Assembly: GCA_026396875.1 (NCBI GenBank) | Contig: JAPLVY010000003.1 | Coordinates: 1-35,728 of the forward strand | DNA: 35,728 nt | Reading direction: 5' to 3' | DNA from: Candidatus Falkowiibacteriota bacterium | GTDB taxonomy: Bacteria; Patescibacteriota; Patescibacteriia; Patescibacteriales; UBA12465 | In this document: piece by piece, positions 6,329 to 35,728 of the stretch | Layout of the letters: the number at the start of each line of letters is the position of its first letter | Numbering within the stretch: position 1 is the first letter of the stretch | Notes under the pieces: generated by a model | Told to the model about the DNA's origin: nothing | Seen by the model: only the letters and a program-made list of their open reading frames with translations | The model's database searches: none | Position numbers and translations under genes: made by a program

Positions 6329-6946
6329 TTGAAACAAAACAAGCAAACAAGCGGAAGTCCATTCCTTGCAACACAAGTATTTGGACACAACCCTTTTGAG
6401 TATCGAGGGGGAGTTTATCGGTTTAATCCCACCGTGGTAACGGCGGGGGTGGCCGAATCAATGCTCACAAAGGACGAAATCAGCCTGATGATGAGTAAAG
6501 ACATTAATTTTATTGGCCTACCAAAAGAACAGCCGGTAATTGTTGTCATTATTGACAGAGTTCATAATGAGGTTCCGCTGGAAAAGAAGAGCAAACCAGA
6601 AGAAGCTAATGAAATTAGTAAATGGCAGGTTGAATTAAATGGCGTTCAATTTGAACGTCAGTACTATCATCATTTTCTTAAAGAGTACTTTGAAAAGTTG
6701 GTGTATTTTCTCGCCGAAGGGAAATGTCCTGACGAATTAGAAATTGAAGATTTTTTATTTCTCTTCAGTATCAACTTCTTTTCTCAGTATCTCATTAGTC
6801 CGGGAGGTAGGTTGATCTCGCCTTGGGAAAAGGCCAGATTTTTTCAGAAAGTTTACAAAGAAATTAACGCTTTCGAATACGCCTTAATCGCTCACAAACT
6901 ACCAGGAGGAAGAGAACAGATTCACTTTATTCTCTGGGAGAAATAA
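6329..6946 (+). CDS. Hypothetical cytoplasmic protein
   Basis: A 205-residue protein with no recognised family, no signal peptide and no membrane segment. It is mixed hydrophilic with several aromatic-rich stretches (for example RQYYHHFLKEYFEKLVYFL, about 111-129). The start is a TTG at 6329, 35 nt after the predicted transcript start and without a Shine-Dalgarno; the first in-frame ATG is codon 45 (6461), so the N-terminus is uncertain. It is monocistronic, bounded by a promoter at 6259 and a terminator at 6955. Confidence 0.65.
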   Translation: MKQNKQTSGSPFLATQVFGHNPFEYRGGVYRFNPTVVTAGVAESMLTKDEISLMMSKDINFIGLPKEQPVIVVIIDRVHNEVPLEKKSKPEEANEISKWQVELNGVQFERQYYHHFLKEYFEKLVYFLAEGKCPDELEIEDFLFLFSINFFSQYLISPGGRLISPWEKARFFQKVYKEINAFEYALIAHKLPGGREQIHFILWEK

Positions 6947-6954
6947 GAAAATAC

Positions 6955-6985
6955 AAAAGGAAGCCCAAAAAAGCTTCCTTTTTGA
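6955..6985 (+). terminator. Intrinsic terminator
   Basis: AAAAGGAAGC (6955-6964) pairs with GCTTCCTTTT (6973-6982), followed by a T-rich tract that also supplies the -35 box of the next promoter (TTGATT, 6982-6987). Confidence 0.85.
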
Positions 6986-7010
6986 TTTTTTAGGCATTTA
7001 ACCCTATAAT
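6982..7010 (+). promoter_or_regulatory. Promoter giving a leaderless message at 7020
   Basis: TTGATT (6982-6987), 17 bp, then perfect TATAAT (7005-7010). Initiation 6-8 bases downstream puts the mRNA 5' end at about 7017, two to three bases before the ATG at 7020, so the message should be leaderless or nearly so. Confidence 0.75.
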
Positions 7011-7019
7011 AGATAGTAT

Positions 7020-7160
7020 ATGAAATCACAAACAGACAAAATTAGCCCAGAATTAAAAGAAAAAATTCAAGCTTTAATTAATGGTTATCGCACCGAAGTC
7101 TCTTCGCTTTTGACTAAAAAGCCAAGTCTCGTCCAAGATGGTGACCAAAAAAAGTCTTAA
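7020..7160 (+). CDS. 46-codon leader ORF, probable true N-terminus of the giant protein
   Basis: ATG at 7020 opens a 46-residue reading frame (MKSQTDKISPELKEK...) ending at TAA 7158-7160. It overlaps the following 1657-codon frame by 23 bases in the +1 frame. Its ATG sits at the predicted 5' end of the transcript, whereas the ATG at 7138 of the giant frame has no ribosome site and a stop (7111-7113) just upstream. The overlap includes an A7 run (7147-7153); loss of one A would fuse the two frames into a single protein. It may therefore be the real N-terminus (sequencing indel, natural frameshift mutation or recoding), or a separate coupled leader peptide. Confidence 0.5.
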   Translation: MKSQTDKISPELKEKIQALINGYRTEVSSLLTKKPSLVQDGDQKKS

Positions 7161-10100
7161 TCATATGTTTAAAGAACAAGGCAGTGCAAACATTGAAGAA
7201 GAAAACACTCTCAAAGAGCTCGAGAGCTCCTTTATTGATTCTCTTGAGGCGGTTGAAAGAATCGAAAAACTAGAACTAGCCCAGGAAAGTCAGAGTAATA
7301 GTCCTCTCTCAGAAAAGGTTTGGCAGGGAATTTCAGAAGCTGGTAGTAGGTTGGTTAAGGGTATTTCTTCAGAGGTGGCAAAAGCTTACGATTCAAATGC
7401 CATTACCATAACTTTCCGTGACCTCTATCTCAAGAAAAAATCTGGCAAGATCAGAGAGAACATTAGAGATTTAAATAGTCATAATTGGAGTAGAAATAAG
7501 CAAGAGCTAAACAAACTTTTCGAAACAGTAAAATCTGGTTTTTGGGGAGCCTCGAAATTCACCGCTGACACCGAACTCAGCCTTGGAAATCTCTTGATGC
7601 AGACAAAAGATTCTAACTTTTTAACCGATCCGGAAATCTCTGCACTATATCCGCAAATTTTCAATAAGCATCGCGCTGGTCAGTCTCCTGCTCGGGGTGG
7701 GTGGTCAGATTTTCTTGATAAATCTGGCTACGCTTTTATTAATAGACAGGGAAATGAAGCAGAAATAGATATCAAGGAAGAGATTGCCAAGGATAGTCAG
7801 GGTGATAGTTTTCTGACCCTTTCTTATTTGAGCAAAGTTTCTGAAAGCAGTTCGCATAGCAATAAAATTGATCACACTCAAGCGATAGAAGCAATCGACA
7901 AGATTATTGAACAATATCCAAATCTCAGAGATATTCCTTACAAACTGTTAGATTATTCTTTGAATAGTTTTCTAAATTGTCCAGATGAATTGCTCCACAA
8001 TGAAGAACGTCGCAACTTTCTTTTTGAAGCCTGGATTAAAAATCTAGACAGAAATGATTTTTTGAGGTTCACGCCTTTCTTTACGGAAAATCTGAAAAAT
8101 GCTTCTGAGCAGCAGAAAGAGTCTTTGAGAATTCACTGTCGTAATTCCAGTAGTTCATTTGGTGTTGCTGCTATGTTGGCAATGACCCCGCCCGATGCCA
8201 CGGACTCTAAGGCCGCAAAAGATTTTGATAAAATTAGTGATAGCGAAGAAGCTTTCAAGAAAACAGACAATATCCCTTTTCTTGCCTTGCGACCAGAAGT
8301 TTTTAAATTTCCCGTCGAGGATTACAATAAAAAATATGCTTTTCAGAGACTAGCTTCTTATGGCAACGATAGTAATAATTCGTGTGCCCTATTTCTTTCC
8401 GTGTTGGTAGAAAATATCTCGACCCTGAGCGCTGGCTTGGACGAGAAAGAGGTGGAAGAAATTGTTTCAAGGTTATTTTCCGGAAACAATCGCAATTTCT
8501 CCATAAAGGATATCCATTTGTGGTCGGAGTTTTTGGATGAAAAAGGCGCCCCTGACTATCTCAAAAAGATGGTCTACGGTAGTGTCCGTTCCGATTTTTT
8601 GCAATTGCACCAAATTTTGGTTGATGGCAAAGACGATGAACAAAACGCCTGGGTGCACTCACGGCCAGAGTTGTTAGCAGCTCTTCAATCGGAATATTTT
8701 AAAAAGAGCGCAAACAATGAATTGCGTCATTATTTCTACGAAACTCTTGACGGTAATTATCAAGTAGAAAATTTTAAAGAGCTAGTTGGCGCTTTTGCTA
8801 AGAAGCATCAAAACCTTGACGCCAATGAATTAGTTAATTTATTTATTTCTCCTGGTAAGGTGGACCGAAAATATATTTCCCGCTTCGTTGTTTCCATTTA
8901 CGACTATAACGCATTCAGGGATCAGCTAAAGAGCTTTGTTTCCGCCGGTAGAATCAGTCAAGATGATGTTTCTTGGTTTCTTGGGAGTTTCGTCGCCGAT
9001 GGTCAGCTCGACAATGCTTCTTCTGCGCTGAGAAATTTTTTGGAACGGGAAGATCTTGCCCCTGAGGATCGGACAGACTTATTGGCAAATTATTCCAGTA
9101 ATTCTCTAAAGAAATTTAAAGGTGGCGATGCTGATGATAGTTATCGCTCAAAAATTTTTAATCCAGTCGCCCTCGAATTCATGACGCCAGAAGAAAAGAG
9201 CGATTATGCCAGAAAATTCCTGGACTCTTTATTAGCTAATACTAATGACACCAGGAGAGTAGAGTTTATCTTTCGCGCCGACAATCTTCCTTTTCTGGAA
9301 ACTGCTTGGCCAGATCCAATTGCCAGGGCAGAATATTTAAAGAAAATCATCGGTGAAACAAAAACGTATAGCGCTGAAAGCACATTAATCAGATCATATT
9401 TTTCTTCTCAAGATGTCTTTAGTGTCCTGGAAGAGGCTGACCGACTAGATTTGGAAAATAGGTTTTTTGCCGAAGCTGATTTAACTGTTGTGGAAGCACT
9501 ATTTCTCTCCATGGATAAAATGTCAGTTAGTCAGAGAAATAGTTTTCGCGACTCATTTCTTAGTCGCCCTGATGTGCTGGCCGTTGGTGGCAGCACTAGT
9601 GCAAATAATTTTTGTTATAATTTCCGTAATCGTTTTCATGGCGCCGCCGATGCTGGTTATTTGGAAATATACAAAGAGCTTTATTCCAAGGTCCTTGCGA
9701 GCGAAAAGTTAACTGGTGACTATTTGGATCATTTGTTTATCCAAGATCTTTTGATTCAATCTCCGGATTTAACCAAGGAATATGTTGAAAAATTTCTTAC
9801 GTTTAAAAATCTAAATGGTTTCAGGGTTTTAAATCTCTTGTCTGAAGGAGGAATGTCAAAAATGGAGGCAGGTGATGTCAAAAGAATTTCTAAGCAAACA
9901 ATGGAACAGTTTGGTTTGACGCCAGATTTCTATAAACGCGCTGTTGCTGCCGACAAAGATAATCCCGATTTTTATTTGGATCAAGAGTTTTTTGACCTGG
10001 GTATCGATAATCTTAACGGGAGACAGGCTTTTCCTTCTGGCGTCGAATCATCCATAAATTTTATCAGTGAATTAAAAAGCGGACCGTTTATTGTTAGCGA

Positions 10101-12111
10101 GGCTCAAGAAAAAAAAATGCTTGGTGCGTTCTTTGACAATTATTACGAAATTGATGCAATAACCGCTCTGTATAAATACGACAATAAGTTCTGTGAAGAA
10201 ATAATACTCAAGAAACTGACGGAAAAAGGTCGATCTCTTATGTCCAATCTTTTTCGTTCGGGGATTTCTTTTTCTGAGGAAATGAATCAAAACATGCTGG
10301 AAAATTTCAAAAGTGATTTTGCTTCTGAAGAAAAGATGTTCACCGATTTATGTTATTATTTCAAAAAAAATCCGGAATATGTGATTTTGATCAAGGACAT
10401 GGTCAAAAAAATGCCGTCAGAAAAGCTTGGGGCCTTCAAAATGATAATGTTTGACGAAGATCTGCTCGATGCTAGCGAACTAAAGAATTTTTATGAGGAT
10501 GTAATCAGAAACGGCGGCGCCAGTGTGCGCGAACAAGTTTTGCAGACAGCCGATATTCTTGGTTCTTTGGTTAGTCGAGGAAAGACTGATGAACTCAGTA
10601 AATTTTTTAATGAGCCTGATCCGGTAGCAGAAAACCAGTTAAAAGATATTGCTTCTTTTACTGAAAAGTATTCACTGGAAAACAAGGGAAGAACGATCGC
10701 CGTAATGTTGTTTGCCAAGGAGTATTTGCCAGAGTTATCTCTTAACGAAGTGATCGCTAAGGTGTCAGGTCGCCTAGAAAAATACGAGAAGATACTAGAA
10801 AAATATTCTTACAAAAATATTCCTGAGGGGCTGAATGCTTCCATCGGCATGGAATATGAGGTTACCCGTTCCACAGCAAATGGTTATGAGGAAATTACCG
10901 GACAAGACTTCAAAAAAGATATTGTTCGCTTAAGTAAGGCAGCCCATGTTGGCAACGGGAACGATGCGGTCCACGAAATTGCTACCAGACCCGCACTCAA
11001 TCCCTATTTGATGCTCTTGGAAACTCAAATCCTTAATGATACTGATTTTGTTGATTTTAATTTCCAGCGCTCCCCTGATTATCAGAAGGGCGCCAGAGGC
11101 TTCCATTTGACCATTGGTGGTGCTCGCGGTCTCAAAGTTGATGATAATACCAATTTTTTACAGAATTCAATTATTGCCGCCTCTTGGGGCGGGGTCCAGG
11201 CGGGCCAATTGGGAGCAAGAGCTAACCGTGGTCGCGGTGTCTCTCTGCGTTTTCGTGAGGCAAATGCCAGCAATAACATCAAATTATTCGAAGAGAACAC
11301 TAGTTCCGTTGAGCTAAGATCGCTTTCTATCGACAAAATGGAAACTTTGCAGCGGGCAGTTACCACCTCTTTTCATGGGGCTATCGCCATTCAGGCCTTA
11401 AATAAATACTCCGATAAGAATTCAGCAGAACTGAGTAATTATTTTAATCAGGCGACAAGTAAAAATGATTTTTTGAAATTAATTTCCAATGTTCAGTTTG
11501 ATGAGATAGACCAAAATACTGGAGAGATTATTTATTATTGGGCGGAAGCAGTTAACGCTATTGAAAAAGCAGTAGAAAATCACAATGAAGCTTTCTTGTC
11601 GGAAGAGGTCAATGGTTATCTCGATCAAAATGACATCTGGGTCGATTCCCGTGATTTTGGCGGCGAGTATAATCGTAAACGTTTTGAATCAGTGGTTAAG
11701 TCCATGGATGATACTTTGTCGGTGGAGGAATACTTCAATTCCACCAAGATTCAAAGAAGCAAATTGTTTTATAGCTTCGACGAGGAGTTGTCAGACAAGC
11801 TGACGAAGATAAATAATCTCTTCTTGAAGGGCGGCTCAGTTAGCAAGGGTGGCGAAGGAGAAAAAGATGAGAAAATTTTTAAGGGTGATCAGGCCAATGC
11901 CTTGGCGATGCTTACGTTTACCAAACTAGACAATGAAAATCTGGAATATCGAAGCGATAGTGAATTTTTGGATTACAGCGTTTTTAATACCCAGGGAGAC
12001 AAAAGAGAGGGTTATTATGCGCTTCAAGGAGCAAGTGAAAAGATGCTGACTCACGCAACCCAAAGGGCTCTGTTAGATTTTAATAAAAAGATGGAGACCC
12101 TGCTTAACTAG
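7138..12111 (+). CDS. Giant helical protein with C-terminal amidoligase-like domain
   Basis: A 1657-residue cytoplasmic protein with no signal peptide or membrane helices. About the first 1200 residues are charged, aromatic-rich and probably alpha-helical (possible degenerate helical repeats); no family was recognised. The segment from about 1230 to 1420 shows the ordered motifs of the amidoligase / glutamate-cysteine-ligase-like (glutamine-synthetase fold) superfamily: GMEYE (1237-1241), VHEIATRP (1278-1285, cf. ElvSpPL), GFHLTIGG (1321-1328, cf. GlHvHv; the second His is Thr), RGRGVSLRFR (1364-1373) and SVELRS (1390-1395). If active it would ligate a carboxylate to an amine using ATP. The superfamily call is a motif-level inference. 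The gene is alone between a promoter at 6982 and a terminator at 12137. The true start may be 7020 (see the upstream frame). Confidence 0.8.
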   Translation: MVTKKSLNHMFKEQGSANIEEENTLKELESSFIDSLEAVERIEKLELAQESQSNSPLSEKVWQGISEAGSRLVKGISSEVAKAYDSNAITITFRDLYLKKKSGKIRENIRDLNSHNWSRNKQELNKLFETVKSGFWGASKFTADTELSLGNLLMQTKDSNFLTDPEISALYPQIFNKHRAGQSPARGGWSDFLDKSGYAFINRQGNEAEIDIKEEIAKDSQGDSFLTLSYLSKVSESSSHSNKIDHTQAIEAIDKIIEQYPNLRDIPYKLLDYSLNSFLNCPDELLHNEERRNFLFEAWIKNLDRNDFLRFTPFFTENLKNASEQQKESLRIHCRNSSSSFGVAAMLAMTPPDATDSKAAKDFDKISDSEEAFKKTDNIPFLALRPEVFKFPVEDYNKKYAFQRLASYGNDSNNSCALFLSVLVENISTLSAGLDEKEVEEIVSRLFSGNNRNFSIKDIHLWSEFLDEKGAPDYLKKMVYGSVRSDFLQLHQILVDGKDDEQNAWVHSRPELLAALQSEYFKKSANNELRHYFYETLDGNYQVENFKELVGAFAKKHQNLDANELVNLFISPGKVDRKYISRFVVSIYDYNAFRDQLKSFVSAGRISQDDVSWFLGSFVADGQLDNASSALRNFLEREDLAPEDRTDLLANYSSNSLKKFKGGDADDSYRSKIFNPVALEFMTPEEKSDYARKFLDSLLANTNDTRRVEFIFRADNLPFLETAWPDPIARAEYLKKIIGETKTYSAESTLIRSYFSSQDVFSVLEEADRLDLENRFFAEADLTVVEALFLSMDKMSVSQRNSFRDSFLSRPDVLAVGGSTSANNFCYNFRNRFHGAADAGYLEIYKELYSKVLASEKLTGDYLDHLFIQDLLIQSPDLTKEYVEKFLTFKNLNGFRVLNLLSEGGMSKMEAGDVKRISKQTMEQFGLTPDFYKRAVAADKDNPDFYLDQEFFDLGIDNLNGRQAFPSGVESSINFISELKSGPFIVSEAQEKKMLGAFFDNYYEIDAITALYKYDNKFCEEIILKKLTEKGRSLMSNLFRSGISFSEEMNQNMLENFKSDFASEEKMFTDLCYYFKKNPEYVILIKDMVKKMPSEKLGAFKMIMFDEDLLDASELKNFYEDVIRNGGASVREQVLQTADILGSLVSRGKTDELSKFFNEPDPVAENQLKDIASFTEKYSLENKGRTIAVMLFAKEYLPELSLNEVIAKVSGRLEKYEKILEKYSYKNIPEGLNASIGMEYEVTRSTANGYEEITGQDFKKDIVRLSKAAHVGNGNDAVHEIATRPALNPYLMLLETQILNDTDFVDFNFQRSPDYQKGARGFHLTIGGARGLKVDDNTNFLQNSIIAASWGGVQAGQLGARANRGRGVSLRFREANASNNIKLFEENTSSVELRSLSIDKMETLQRAVTTSFHGAIAIQALNKYSDKNSAELSNYFNQATSKNDFLKLISNVQFDEIDQNTGEIIYYWAEAVNAIEKAVENHNEAFLSEEVNGYLDQNDIWVDSRDFGGEYNRKRFESVVKSMDDTLSVEEYFNSTKIQRSKLFYSFDEELSDKLTKINNLFLKGGSVSKGGEGEKDEKIFKGDQANALAMLTFTKLDNENLEYRSDSEFLDYSVFNTQGDKREGYYALQGASEKMLTHATQRALLDFNKKMETLLN

Positions 12112-12136: not shown

Positions 12137-12168
12137 AAAAAACTCCTTTTCTGGAGTTTTTTGTTTTT
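12137..12168. terminator. Bidirectional terminator between convergent genes
   Basis: AAAAAACTCC (12137-12146) pairs with GGAGTTTTTT (12153-12162), with A- and T-runs on both sides. It separates the giant gene from the minus-strand methyltransferase that ends at 12169. Confidence 0.88.
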
Positions 12169-20082: not shown

Positions 20083-20844
20083 ATGCTAAAAAGCAGAAAA
20101 TTTGCGATCTTCGTGATTGCTTTGCTGATCTCCCTGACGCTAAAAGCTCAGAAAGCAGATCTCTTTGATTTTAAAATTGGTTTCTCAACCAATCAAATGA
20201 ACGCTTCTCATGTTTCGGAAGATTTCCGAAATGTCCCCATTCATCCCGACGACGGCAGTGGCCCAAGTGGTGTCATCGCAAAAGCCGATTATTCAGTACC
20301 ATTTTTTTTGTCCCTCGATTTCCTTTATAAACATAAATTTGAAGGTGGTATTATCTTTGGTGGCGGCTTAACGCTTGGTTGCCATTTTGCCGACCTAGAA
20401 GAGAGGAACTATACTAACGCTCCCGGAACCTCACAAAGAGGCTATGGGGCGGCTCTGACTTATTGCGGCGTGATTGTTGAGGGACCCCTTGGCGCAGCCG
20501 GTGTGCACCCGCTAATTAATGGCATGAGTGTTTTGCCAAAGTTAATTTTTGAAGTTCCGATTAAAAAATCCTTAAGCTTTTCTTTGGCAGCTAGTTATCA
20601 GGCTTTTTCAGCAATTAATGGCTGGGATCGTTTTGATGACAAGGAATGCAATGAAACCAAAGTTTTAGCCCATTTATTTCCGTTGGATGCTTCTTTGAGA
20701 TTTAATTTTTCTGGCTGGGGGCTAGAGCTCGGTTCTCGCTACCTCATTACTTCCTTAACTGGTACGGGCAAGGATTTTGGTACAAAAATTAGTCCCTTTG
20801 GTGTCTACGTTGGCTTCTCATTAAATACCAAGGTGCTCGAATAA
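20083..20844 (+). CDS. Outer-membrane-barrel-like secreted protein
   Basis: A 253-residue protein with a cleavable-type signal peptide (Lys/Arg start, hydrophobic core about 8-20, LTLKA-Q junction about 22-23) whose Ala-Gln ending is typical of Bacteroidota secreted proteins. The mature part has alternating hydrophobic/polar strands with aromatic ends (for example FFLSLDFLYKHKFEGGIIFGGGLTLG, SLRFNFSGWGLELGSRYLI, PFGVYVGFSLN), as in small outer-membrane beta-barrels, but without a canonical terminal Phe. Patescibacteria are generally thought to lack an outer membrane, so this gene may have been acquired from a Bacteroidota-like donor, or may be a secreted beta-protein with another role. It is monocistronic. 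Confidence 0.65.
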   Translation: MLKSRKFAIFVIALLISLTLKAQKADLFDFKIGFSTNQMNASHVSEDFRNVPIHPDDGSGPSGVIAKADYSVPFFLSLDFLYKHKFEGGIIFGGGLTLGCHFADLEERNYTNAPGTSQRGYGAALTYCGVIVEGPLGAAGVHPLINGMSVLPKLIFEVPIKKSLSFSLAASYQAFSAINGWDRFDDKECNETKVLAHLFPLDASLRFNFSGWGLELGSRYLITSLTGTGKDFGTKISPFGVYVGFSLNTKVLE

Positions 20845-21904: not shown

Positions 21905-22807
21905 TTAGTGTTTTTTAAAGAAATCTTTTAGGGAGAGCACTTCTAGAGAAAAAAGTTGATTAAATTCTGAATCACAAATATTTTCTAGTGATTCGGTTTC
22001 TTCATTGAGTGAAATAAAAAAGGAATTTTTTCTGGTGATAGTTAAATATTTTTCCAAAATAATTTCCTGATTAGGAAGTTTTTGTTTTTGGTTCTGCCCG
22101 ATACTAATAATTATTGGTACGCAGCTTGGCATTTCCTTATTATCAGAGTAGCGCAAATAAATGTTAAAAACTCTTCTCCCATATTCATCTTTCTTGCATT
22201 TAATTATTGCTTTTCCTTGGATCCCAGTGGTCTTCTGCTCATCAAAGTTGATTTGCAAAAATCCCAGACGCCCCCCTTTGAAGATCATTTTTTCTCCATA
22301 GAGATAGTATAGCCGGCCAAAGAAATAGCTGGCCAAATCCCCGGGTTCTCGTCTAGCTTGCTCGAGACTGTGAATATAAGTATTTCCCATAGTCTGCGGG
22401 AAGATTTTATATTCAGGGAAAGCTTCATTTATCATTTCTAAGTATATTGGATTTTTTTCTCCAAAATCCAAGCAATACTTATTTTGATAAAAGTAGGCAT
22501 TCCTTGAGAGGTCGAACTGTTCTTGCTTGATTAATCTAATAATCTCTATTTTTAAACTTTTTAGATCTTTGATCGCTTTTTCCCAATAGGGGCCAATTTC
22601 ATCGATAGTTTCTTGAATTTTTAGGTAAAAACCTTTTCCATAAACTAAAATAATTATTAGACGTCTACCTTTTCTCCAAAAAATTAAAGATTCTGGTATT
22701 GGTTGAAAATAATCGCAATAGTTTTGGTTGGTAGCCAAGTCCTTACTATTCACTCCCGATTCTTGTAAAAAATTAATAATTTTTTTTCTGCTTGTTTCTG
22801 CTTTCAT
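21905..22807 (-). CDS. Hypothetical cytoplasmic protein
   Basis: A 300-residue protein rich in Lys, Glu, Ile and aromatics, without signal peptide or membrane helices. No family was recognised. The middle (about 135-190) has a mixed-charge segment with FGRLYYLYGEKMIFKGGRLGFLQINFDEQ, and the C-terminal half looks beta-rich. It is monocistronic and AT-richer than its neighbours. Confidence 0.65.
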   Translation of the reverse strand: MKAETSRKKIINFLQESGVNSKDLATNQNYCDYFQPIPESLIFWRKGRRLIIILVYGKGFYLKIQETIDEIGPYWEKAIKDLKSLKIEIIRLIKQEQFDLSRNAYFYQNKYCLDFGEKNPIYLEMINEAFPEYKIFPQTMGNTYIHSLEQARREPGDLASYFFGRLYYLYGEKMIFKGGRLGFLQINFDEQKTTGIQGKAIIKCKKDEYGRRVFNIYLRYSDNKEMPSCVPIIISIGQNQKQKLPNQEIILEKYLTITRKNSFFISLNEETESLENICDSEFNQLFSLEVLSLKDFFKKH

Positions 22808-30986: not shown

Positions 30987-32822
30987 ATGTCTCAAAATAA
31001 ATTCTTAAAAATACCGGTTAAAGGCATGCACTGTCGTTCTTGTGAACTTTTGATCGAGGAAGGCCTTCAAGAGATTGAAGGAGTAAATTCAGTAAAAACT
31101 GATTATCAAAAAGGAGAGGCGACAATTTATTATCAAGGCGCAGAACCTTCTCTCGGTCTTGTGAAAAAAGCAGTCGTTTCTGCTGGTTATCAAATCGGTC
31201 GAGAAGAAGAGTTAACTTGGATTTCTCAAGATGTTAAGGAGTACCGTAATTTGGGTGTCGCTTTCTTAATTCTTCTTGGCATCTATTTAATTCTCAAAGC
31301 CCTCGGGCTCACTGGTGTTAATATTAATTCCAACTTAAGTAATCCTGGCTTTGGCTTAGTGATTATGATCGGCCTAGTAGCTGGGTTTTCTACCTGCATG
31401 GCATTAGTTGGTGGATTGTCGCTCGGTCTGTCCACTAAATTTTTGGCTAGTCATCCGGAAGCTACAGCTAAACAGAAATTTCGCCCTCATCTTTTCTTTA
31501 TTGGCGGTAGGGTTGTTGGTTATGCTCTTTTGGGCGGCATTCTTGGAATGTTAGGATCCGCCTTCAAGCTCTCCGCTCTCACTAATAGCATTCTTACTAT
31601 TGCTGTTGCCATGGTGATGTTGGTCATGGGGCTTCAGTTGGTGAATATTTTTCCGCGTTTAAGCAAATTTAAATTTACTCTACCGAAAAATATTAGTAAG
31701 GCCCTCGGCTTTAGTCAAAAATCCAAAGAATACAGTCATGGTCGAGCAATGTTTTTGGGCGCGCTAACCTTTTTCTTGCCTTGTGGGTTTACTCAGGCGA
31801 TGCAACTTTATGCCGTCAGTACTGGTAATTTTTGGTCAGGATTCGCAGTGATGGGTTTGTTCGCTCTTGGTACGGCACCGGGGCTTTTGAGTATTGGCGG
31901 TTTAACTTCTCTAGTGAAAGGGTTATTTAAGGAGAGATTTTTTAAAGTTGCCGGTTTGGCACTAATTATTTTTGCTTTATTTAACTTACACAATGCTTAC
32001 GTGCTAGCCGGTTTTAGCGGGAATAGCATTAATTCCGTAAAATCAGAGAAAGTAGTTAATGATCCGAATGTTACCATGGAAGACGGAGTTCAGGTGGTGA
32101 GAATGATCGAAGGCAATAGGGGCTATTCGCCAAATAAATTCTCGATCAAAAAAGACGTACCAGTGAAATGGATTATTGACGCTCAGGCACCATATTCTTG
32201 TGCTAGCTCTTTGGTCTTGCCGAAAATGAATATCGAGAAAACCTTAGAGGCTGGGGAAAATATTATTGAGTTTACTCCCACAGAAACTGGTAAACTACCT
32301 TTCTCTTGTTCGATGGGAATGTATACTGGTGTGTTCAACGTTTATGATGAGAATTCAACAGCCAGCCTTGATACAGTCAGTAGCAAGGTCGCAGCGAGAA
32401 CGAGTGGCGGTTCCTGTGGCATGACTAGGTCAAGCGGTGATGGATCTTGCGGCGGTAGCGGAGCTACTGGTGGTGGTTGTGGTTGTGGTGGAGGTGGCGC
32501 AAAAGTAAAAACTAGTGCTACCGAGACACCAGCCGCTCCAACTAGCGAAGTTCAAGTAATTAAAACTTCCTATACTTTATCCAAGGATATCCAACCAAAT
32601 GATTTTAAGGTTAAAGTCGGTAAGCCAGTTCGTTTTGAAGTGGCAGTCAAAGAAGATGGCGTTGGTTGTATGAGCCAAATAGAAATTCAGGGGCTTTATG
32701 AAAAACCGCAACTTTTGGAAGCAGGAAAAACCTTAGTAATGGAATTTACCCCGCAGACCCCAGGAGAATATCTAATTGTTTGTCCGATGGGAGTGGTGCG
32801 CGGTTGGCTCAAGGTTGAATAA
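30987..32822 (+). CDS. HMA-TauE/SafE(UreH-like)-cupredoxin-cupredoxin fusion protein
   Basis: A 611-residue multi-domain membrane protein. (1) HMA domain, about 5-68, with MHCRSC. (2) TauE/SafE/DsbD_2 (UreH-like) membrane domain, about 90-350, with the paired-Cys signature [11 protein letters not shown] (C137) and LPCGFTQ (C266). (3) Cupredoxin-like domain, about 370-455, with C405 and CSMGM (C441, M445). (4) A Gly/Cys/Ser-rich linker (about 465-505; several Cys in [11 protein letters not shown] patterns). (5) A second cupredoxin-like domain, about 520-611, with IVCPMGV near the end. It would take copper by its cytosolic HMA and hand it across the membrane to external cupredoxins or keep them reduced. 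Substrate and direction are not proven. Confidence 0.88.
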
Positions 32823-32847
32823 TTTTAACTTAATAAATTTTAGATAT

Positions 32848-35728
32848 ATGGAAAATAAAAGAATTAATCTGTCTCTTTCTGGAATGCACTGTTCTTCTTG
32901 TGCCAATCTGATTGAAAAAAGATTACAAAGAGTTCCTGGCGTTAATTCGGCTAATGTTAATTTTGCAGCTGAAAAAGTTTTAGTGGATTACAATGAAGAA
33001 CAGGTTAATCCACAACTTTTAGTGACAGCAGTAGAAAAGGCTGGTTATAAGGCGGAAATAGTGGAGGCGAGTGACACCAGTCATGATCAGAGAAAACATG
33101 AAAAAGAAAGTAAGGACTACGGAAGAAGATTCTGGATTAGTTTTCTCTTGAGTTTGCCTTTGATTTACTTCATGCTTTTAGACTTCTTTGTTTTGCCCGG
33201 GCAAGCAATCATTTTGCCTTTTGTCGGAATCATTTCTTTCTTGCTAGTAACACCGGTCCAGTTTATTATTGGCGCCGGTTTCTATAAAGGAATGTGGGCA
33301 TCCTTGAAAATGAGGACTTTCAATATGGACAGCTTGGTAGCGATTGGTACTTCCACCGCTTATTTCTACAGTTTATATAATTTACTTCATTATTATTTTC
33401 TCAACCATTCATTTATTGGTTTGGCGGGAAAGATACCAGAACTATATTTTGAGACGGCTGCCTATCTGATTACTTTCGTTATTCTGGGTAAATGGCTAGA
33501 GATGCGCACCAAGGGCAAGACGGGCGATGCCATCAAGAAGTTAATGGGGCTACAGGCTAAAACGGCGCGAGTGCGAAGAAACGGCCAGGAAATTGATCTA
33601 GCCATTAACGAAGTTGTTCATGGTGATGTTGTTATTGTTCGACCAGGAGAAAAAATTCCTGTTGACGGGAAAATTAATAAAGGATCTTCGTCGCTTGATG
33701 AATCCATGATTACCGGCGAAAGCTTACCGGTAGAAAAGAACGTTGGCGACTTGGTAATTGGAGCAACTATCAACAAAACTGGTAGCTTTGAGTTCATCGC
33801 CACCAGAATCGGCAGTGAAACCGCTTTGGCGCAAATAATTCGTTTAGTAGAAGATGCCCAAGGTTCAAAGGCGCCGATTCAGGGATTTGCCGATCGGATT
33901 GCAGCAGTGTTTGTGCCAATAGTTATTAGCTTGGCTATTTTGACTTTTGCGGTCTGGTATTTATTTCTAGGTAGCACTCTGTCCTTTGCTTTGATGGCAT
34001 TTACCGCGGTAATCGTGATTGCTTGTCCTTGTGCTTTAGGCCTAGCAACTCCAACGGCTTTAATGGTGGGGACTGGTCGCGGCGCTGAGCAGGGAATCTT
34101 GATCAAGGGCGGTGAGCCACTTGAGGCGGCTTGTCATATTAAGGCCGTGATTTTTGATAAGACCGGCACTTTAACCAAGGGTAAGCCAGAGGTCACAGAC
34201 TTATTGTCTCTTGGCGATTTGGGTGAAGAAAAAATATTAACTCTTTCAGCTAGTTTGGAAAAAATGTCTGAACACCCACTTGCCGAAGCGATTTATAATT
34301 ATTTTCAGACACAAAAAAAAGAAATACTGGAAGTGAAAAATTTTTCAGCCATTCCTGGCCATGGCGTTTCTGGCACCATTGATAGCGTTGAATACTACTT
34401 TGGCAATCGCCGTTTAGTGACAGAGAATCTGAAGCATTCTGTTACTGCAATCGATCAACAAATGATTGACCTAGAATCCCAAGGAAAAACGGTCATGATA
34501 CTTTCTACCAAAGAAAAACTCTTGGGGCTCATTGCAGTTGCTGATACTGTCAAGCCGACATCAAGGGAAGCGGTCCAAAAATTACAGAAGTTGGGCATGA
34601 CAATCTATATGATTACTGGTGACAACGAAAGGACTGCCAAGGCAATCGCTAATCAGGTCGGCATTACTAATATTTTGGCTGAAGTTTTACCTGGAGATAA
34701 AGCGAACGAGGTTAAGAAATTACAACAGCAAGGTCTGAGGGTTGCCATGATTGGTGACGGTATTAATGACGCGCCAGCCTTGGCTCAAGCAGACCTGGGG
34801 ATTGCAATGGGCTCCGGCACAGACGTGGCCATGGAGTCGGGGGGGATAGTTATCATGAAAGACGATCTAAACGACGTAGTGACCGCTTTTCAGCTCTCTC
34901 GCGAGACGATGGCAAAGATCAAGCAGAATATGTTTTTTGCCTTGTTTTATAATGTTATCGGAATTCCAATCGCCGCCAGAGTTTTTGTGGTTTTTGGCCT
35001 AGTTCTAAGACCAGAGTTAGCTGGTTTGGCAATGGCGATGAGCTCAATCTCGGTAGTGGGCAATGCTTTGCTGCTCAGGCGTTTTCGTGCCAATAAGAAG
35101 AATTACTTATCATTACTTGCTCCCATAGCGATGGTGCTAGTTTTTACTTTCGCTTTTTTTCAATTTGCCAAACTAAGTGCCGGCATGGAAATTCCTGGCG
35201 AAAATTTAACCGTATCAGTGAAAACTGCTACCGATTTAAATCTATTAATTGCTAATGGTGAGACAAAAATTAATTTTGGTGAAGGAAATCCCAAATTGTT
35301 TTTGAAGATGGAATTTCTACCCAATTCTTTATCAGCCAAAGAGGGAACAGTTAATTTACTAGAAGATGAAATGGTGGTTGGTTCAGCAGAGGGGGCAATG
35401 ATGAAAAAGGCGGGTCTAATAAAAGGCGTTGGTGATAGTTTGAAAAATTTCTTTGGTGTGCCAAGCATGAAGGTGGTAGGAATTTTAAAGCCAACTGGCA
35501 CGATGATTGATGACTACCATTTTGTTAACAATGCTACCTTTGTCAAACTAGGAAATGAAGCAGTAGTAAAATATGTTGCTGAAGGAGTAATAATGAAAGA
35601 TTTTTATTTTATAAACGCAACTAATACACCAGAAAAAATACGTAATGGACTAAGTGGATTTGCAGTAGTTAACGTTAATGGCAGAAATTATCAGCCGATT
35701 TATATCGGCTCCAGTGAAGCCAAAATGA
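32848..35728 (+). CDS. copA: CopA-type Cu(I) P1B-ATPase with C-terminal ectodomain (partial at window end)
   Basis: A reading frame open from ATG 32848 to the window end (960 codons; no stop reached, so 3' partial; the final TGA is out of frame). N-terminal HMA (C15, C18), membrane helices, actuator TGES (289-292), copper CPC (C393, C395), phosphorylation DKTGT (D437), HP motif (SEHPLAEA), and GDGINDAP (636-643), all typical of Cu+ exporters. Instead of ending after the last helix (about 742), it has an extra membrane segment (about 754-772) and at least 185 more residues that should lie outside the cell. That region contains [18 protein letters not shown], reminiscent of MacB/FtsX-type periplasmic domains. 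It is 25 bases after the cupredoxin fusion gene in the csoR operon. Confidence 0.93.

Follow-up and report, generated by a model that had tools for sequence, protein, structure and literature searches.

A giant Patescibacteria protein combining a putative glutamine-synthetase-fold ligase domain with a long, predicted helical N-terminal part

The giant gene and its linked small genes

The window, by which we mean the whole 35,728-nucleotide stretch of DNA analysed, carries a giant gene that is open throughout and comprises 1657 codons as annotated (Table 1). The motifs named in the preliminary description are found in the order given there, with GMEYE at residues 1237-1241, HEIATRP at 1279-1285, GFHLTI at 1321-1326 and ELRS at 1392-1395. 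A second copy is absent from the 767-kb genome, which is ~89% complete. The annotated start is overlapped by a small upstream frame encoding 46 aa (MKSQTDKISPELKEKIQALINGYRTEVSSLLTKKPSLVQDGDQKKS). In relatives, the ligase genes begin 1-10 nt past the stop of such a frame, and ATG 7165 is therefore probably the true start of the giant gene, rather than 7138. A pattern scan placed a promoter-like site upstream of the small frame, whose ATG follows 9 nt further on, making a leaderless start possible. Together with the terminator-like stems on both sides, this pattern evidence suggests that the giant gene forms its own transcription unit. The peak 19-residue hydropathy of the protein is 1.59 and a clear membrane segment is not seen, so that a cytoplasmic location is probable.

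Table 1. Features of the giant-gene locus, and the downstream small genes at related loci
Feature	Position	Strand	Description
Intrinsic-terminator-like stem	6955..6982	.	Pattern scan; T-rich tail on both strands; would end the upstream transcription unit
Promoter-like site	6982..7010	+	Pattern scan; TTGATT-17-TATAAT
Small frame	7020..7160	+	46 aa; counterparts in L021, L022 and L017
Giant gene	7138..12111	+	1657 codons as annotated
N-terminal ~395 residues	7138..8322	+	Predicted helical at very low confidence (pLDDT mostly under 50); poorly conserved
Residues ~396-1120	8323..10497	+	Predicted run of short helices resembling a solenoid, with HEAT-like matches; confidence low to moderate
Putative glutamine-synthetase-fold ligase domain	10684..12108	+	Residues 1183-1657; ~480 residues; conserved; from alignment and fold searches
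GMEYE	10846..10860	+	Strand-1 GhExE motif
D1276 ... E1280 (DAVHE)	10963..10977	+	Acidic residues at strands 2-3
H1323-L-T1325	11104..11112	+	Strand-4 motif, Thr replacing Asn/His
R1366 and R1371	11233..11250	+	Loop and strand 5, respectively
E1392-L-R1394	11311..11319	+	Strand-6 ExR motif
Terminator-like stem	12137..12162	.	Pattern scan; between the giant gene and a convergent methyltransferase gene
Downstream small gene	L008:14048-14479		Related locus
Downstream small gene	L017:12142-12576		Related locus
Downstream small gene	L023:11378-11794		Related locus
Downstream small gene	L024:2037-2435		Related locus
Downstream small gene	L010:5507-5977		Related locus

The protein had been described as stand-alone. 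This is only partly right, as linked small genes exist both in relatives and at the window. At four loci, namely the window, L021 (45 aa), L022 (40 aa) and L017 (55 aa), the ligase start lies no more than a few bases from the end of a 40-55-aa frame. When the upstream sequence was shuffled for the window, L021 and L022, such a frame arose in 1-3% of cases. Similarity between these frames is significant only for the window versus L017 (shuffle p=0.0017), the other pairs being marginal or showing none. No such frame is present at G029, and L023 and L026 leave too little room for one between the ligase gene and the gene before it. On the other side, a gene of 132-156 aa follows 3-6 nt past the ligase gene at five loci (Table 1). 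Its products form a single family by sequence and have no convincing Pfam match; a search found no member in the window genome or G699, and G029 gave only a hit at E 0.07. Neither linked small gene is universal among the ligase loci. The 46-aa product is a candidate partner, substrate, regulator or leader peptide, and the downstream products are candidate substrates or regulators.

The 205-aa gene at 6329-6946 was also considered as a partner and rejected: a terminator-like stem intervenes and no counterpart lies beside the relatives. Searches of Pfam, NCBIfam, PHROGs and PADLOC gave nothing convincing for its product. Elsewhere in the window, the proteins encoded at 20083-20844 (253 aa) and 21905-22807 (300 aa) have no Pfam match at E 0.001, and a metal-handling pair occupies 30987-35727, in which an HMA-DsbD_2-cupredoxin protein precedes an HMA-containing P-type ATPase.

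Distribution and conservation

Patescibacteria are streamlined, mostly symbiotic or host-dependent bacteria, and most of their giant proteins still lack an explanation. Queries with the whole protein gave a single partial relative within the family, in G029 (28%; an N-terminal part lying where a contig ends), and a first pass over genome contigs and viral contigs gave no relatives. The N-terminal part is too variable for such queries, a problem solved by using the C-terminal domain alone, which retrieved relatives in G235, G314 and G728. A three-sequence profile of the domain was then searched against 84,980 species genomes and found eight loci, in Nomurabacteria, Paceibacterota, UBA12445, Magasanikbacteria, Doudnabacteria (the G728 protein), Microgenomates and SR1 (code 25), and that of the G235 protein. 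The distribution is patchy, with the domain present in no more than ~1% of the Patescibacteria genomes sampled, and the relatives of the giant protein place the window genome in this same group. Despite this patchiness, there is no support for a mobile or phage origin, the domain being found in none of the viral contigs, phages or plasmids searched. Weak domain matches in G474, G526, G608 and G731 were dropped (0/4 were recovered with the profile), and an apparently split gene in G314, with its halves at two contig ends, is most simply an assembly break.

The complete giant proteins are 1136-1839 aa long, and a divergent stand-alone relative of 367 aa (21% identity) occurs in G699 (L018). In the tree, the window, L021 and L022 group with full support, and the deeper branching order lacks resolution. 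The two nearest relatives are 56-57% identical to the window protein in the domain and 20-23% in the ~1180-residue N-terminal part. Across nine homologues, domain identity to the window is 36-57%, and the giant members span the Nomurabacteria, Paceibacterota, Magasanikbacteria, Doudnabacteria, Microgenomates and SR1 loci. The preliminary description had placed the ligase at residues 1237-1395; the motifs are indeed there, and the conserved unit is wider, running from ~1183 to the end. It had also named loss of the conserved Glu, His and Arg in orthologues as grounds for abandoning the ligase reading, and these residues are all present: E1239, E1241, D1276, E1280, H1323, T1325, R1366, R1371, E1392 and R1394 are invariant in the nine homologues. 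Of 505 alignment positions 64 are invariant, and the probability that seven named catalytic positions all fall among them by luck is ~5e-7, a figure that applies to positions chosen post hoc. Judged from the alignment, the motif conservation is not due to chance. In the stand-alone L018 protein, GxExE, HxTIGG and ExR are retained, as are the strand-5 Arg and both acidic residues (D and E) of strands 2-3; it lacks the loop Arg (R1366) that all giant members have.

The N-terminal part comprises about 670-1350 residues in full-length members. Compared with the window's, those of other groups show no clear similarity, with a weak signal only over the ~110 residues that directly precede the domain; between the G235/G314 group and the Doudna/UBA12445 group, the N-terminal parts are related. 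A model of residues 1-1181 (mean pLDDT 58, pTM 0.35) has helices throughout, best between ~396 and ~1120, and matches solenoids of the HEAT and TPR types, as a model of this kind would do anyway. The N-terminal part is likely a solenoid scaffold, as predicted from this model; given the pTM of 0.35, both its solenoid nature and any role in holding a substrate are tentative.

Fold and family membership of the domain

Members of the carboxylate-amine/ammonia ligase superfamily have six core strands with helices after strands 3 and 6, an Ex[EH] motif on strand 1 (usually GhExE), acidic residues in both strand 2 and strand 3, a [HD]x[NH] motif on strand 4, an Arg on strand 5 with another in the preceding loop, and Ex[RK]x2D on strand 6 (PMC2588565). 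An AlphaFold model of the domain, built with nine sequences, reached a mean pLDDT of 78 and a pTM of 0.84. This structure prediction, which had been proposed as a check, returned the six strands of the glutamine-synthetase-fold ligases in order (82-90, 120-122, 127-130, 170-176, 219-221 and 238-244 in model numbering), with helices after strands 3 and 6. The motifs sit on strands 1, 3, 4 and 6, with GMEYE on strand 82-90, D1276 just past strand 2 and E1280 in strand 3. The GhExE motif, the acidic residues of strands 2-3 and the two arginines are thus all in place. Strand 4 agrees by half with [HD]x[NH]: the His is invariant and the third position is Thr in every member, confirming the earlier observation that the second His is changed to Thr. 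This HxT may be a family-specific variant of the strand-4 motif. On strand 6, ExR is invariant and the following Asp is spaced differently, at x4 in 8/9 sequences and at x2 only in SR1.

In a Foldseek search with the domain model, the best matches were glutamine synthetases (probability 0.99) and YbdK, with a modest best E of 0.012. Via re-alignment, the YbdK-type 1tt4 gave Z 9.2 (rmsd 4.2, 206 aligned), YbdK 1r8g Z 9.0 (rmsd 4.5, 213 aligned), Dop 4b0r Z 8.9 (rmsd 4.7, 214 aligned), glutamine synthetases Z 8.5 and below, and PafA 4bjr Z 7.9 (rmsd 4.9, 223 aligned). The well-ranked PDB matches all belong to a single superfamily, that of the glutamine-synthetase fold, and in a viral library amidoligases made up most of the annotated top matches. 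Arginine and guanido kinases were rejected; they appear only low in the fold list, with GhExE present and a Pfam match absent. These modelled comparisons, with moderate fold scores, support a glutamine-synthetase fold near YbdK/GCS2, Dop, glutamine synthetase and the phage amidoligases. The model, the fold matches, the viral amidoligase matches and the invariant residues agree with the reading as a glutamine-synthetase-fold ligase that the preliminary description had offered.

A placement in PF12224 or PF04107 found no support. Pfam hmmscan of nine members with E up to 10 gave no ligase family, including PF12224, PF04107 and PF03136, and a profile of ten phage Amidoligase_2 proteins, compared with that of the domain by hhalign, reached a probability below 1% at E 0.08, short of significance. 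A PF12224 search in the relatives gave no match, nor did it in its controls. NCBIfam, PHROGs, PADLOC and PDB sequences contained nothing meaningful for the giant protein, and in these databases and Pfam the N-terminal part matches nothing, as had been stated. A role in defence is likewise unsupported, PADLOC and PHROGs having given no meaningful match. On present evidence, the domain is a separate family within the glutamine-synthetase-fold superfamily, outside any named family. An undescribed family and architecture would thereby be added to the superfamily that holds glutamine synthetase, the glutathione-type ligases and PafA, the new elements being the HxT active-site variant and a fused arm that exceeds the enzyme in size.

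Proposed chemistry and alternatives

Amide-ligase chemistry appears well supported, and is deduced from superfamily membership and from the invariant residues, which occupy the superfamily's metal-, phosphate- and ATP-contacting positions. With Mg-ATP, a carboxylate would be phosphorylated and an amine would attack the acyl phosphate to form an amide bond. The N-terminal part evolves too fast to be catalytic; it may hold a protein or peptide and present it to the ligase domain, and the linked small genes (40-55 aa before or 132-156 aa after, depending on the lineage) could encode either a regulator or one substrate of the two. A protein or peptide may thus be what the ligase modifies, and we consider it fairly probable that the giant protein is an ATP-dependent ligase whose helical part holds the protein or peptide to be modified. 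Arguing against it are the silence of the known-ligase profiles even at E up to 10, the moderate fold scores and the departure of strand 4 from [HD]x[NH]. Glutamine synthetase has the fold, but its identity to the domain is 11-16%, there is no Pfam match, and the giant N-terminal arm is found here. The Rv2566-type mycobacterial ligase is, by description, likewise a large protein with a C-terminal glutamine-synthetase-fold ligase; its N-terminal domain is transglutaminase-like, whereas the one described here is predicted to be helical and has no Pfam match (PMC2588565 for Rv2566).

A small-molecule ligase like GCS2/YbdK or the phage amidoligases, joining a glutamate-like carboxylate to a small amine while the helical part regulates or localises the enzyme, is possible though rather unlikely. 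YbdK-type proteins are the nearest solved folds by Z and have GxExE on strand 1 and ExR on strand 6, the phage amidoligases have the same motif order (GxExE, D...E, HxH, ExR), and the 367-aa stand-alone relative has no giant arm. However, the YbdK/GCS2 proteins (PF04107), at ~360 residues, lack such an arm and differ in the strand-4 motif as well as in giving no profile match, and the phage amidoligases (PF12224) have HxH where the giant proteins have HxT. The about 670-1350 additional residues are costly in a 0.77-Mb genome, and the usual phage amidoligase neighbours (glutamine amidotransferase, COOH-NH2 ligase, ATP-grasp and AIG2) are absent beside the giant gene.

Dop is the exception in the superfamily in that it cuts amide bonds. 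PafA and Dop are a ligase and a hydrolase on one core (PMC7947786), Dop is among the top fold matches, and the altered strand-4 residue could signal altered chemistry; a hydrolase or deamidase that cuts amide bonds by phosphate chemistry in the manner of Dop is nevertheless improbable. The Dop profile gives no match, and the proteasome family (PF00227) was found in 0/6 genomes tested, with positive controls; two of these six genomes, G000 and G029, have a completeness of only ~89%.

To our knowledge, PafA is the one protein-tagging ligase on the glutamine-synthetase fold. The giant proteins resemble PafA and Dop in this fold, in GhExE and in having small linked genes, placed at or 1-10 nt before the ligase gene (window, L017, L021, L022) or 3-6 nt after it, as Pup genes likewise adjoin PafA (PMC2588565). 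A pupylation-like system, in which the ligase joins the upstream or downstream small protein to target proteins, is all the same very improbable, and we see equally little chance that a solenoid-armed Patescibacteria ligase tags proteins with a co-encoded small protein in cells without a proteasome, in a manner distinct from pupylation and ubiquitin. The case for tagging is weakened because the small products have no conserved C-terminal Gly-Glu/Gln tail and no Pup-like C-terminus, and because the six genomes tested gave no proteasome family, though Pup systems without linked proteasome genes exist (PMC2588565). In addition, the small frames are not universal and the upstream ones are only weakly alike, PF03136 gives no match, and the giant protein is much larger than the Pup ligase and Dop.

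That the domain is a catalytically dead relic retained as a binding module is extremely improbable, for although its strand-4 motif is unlike that of characterised enzymes, the other catalytic residues are invariant across very distant lineages and the core ones are also kept in the stand-alone form. Near this stand-alone relative in G699, L018:12241-18684 encodes a 2147-aa protein of short repeats ('SNTxGxxNTAxGxxSLY'-like).
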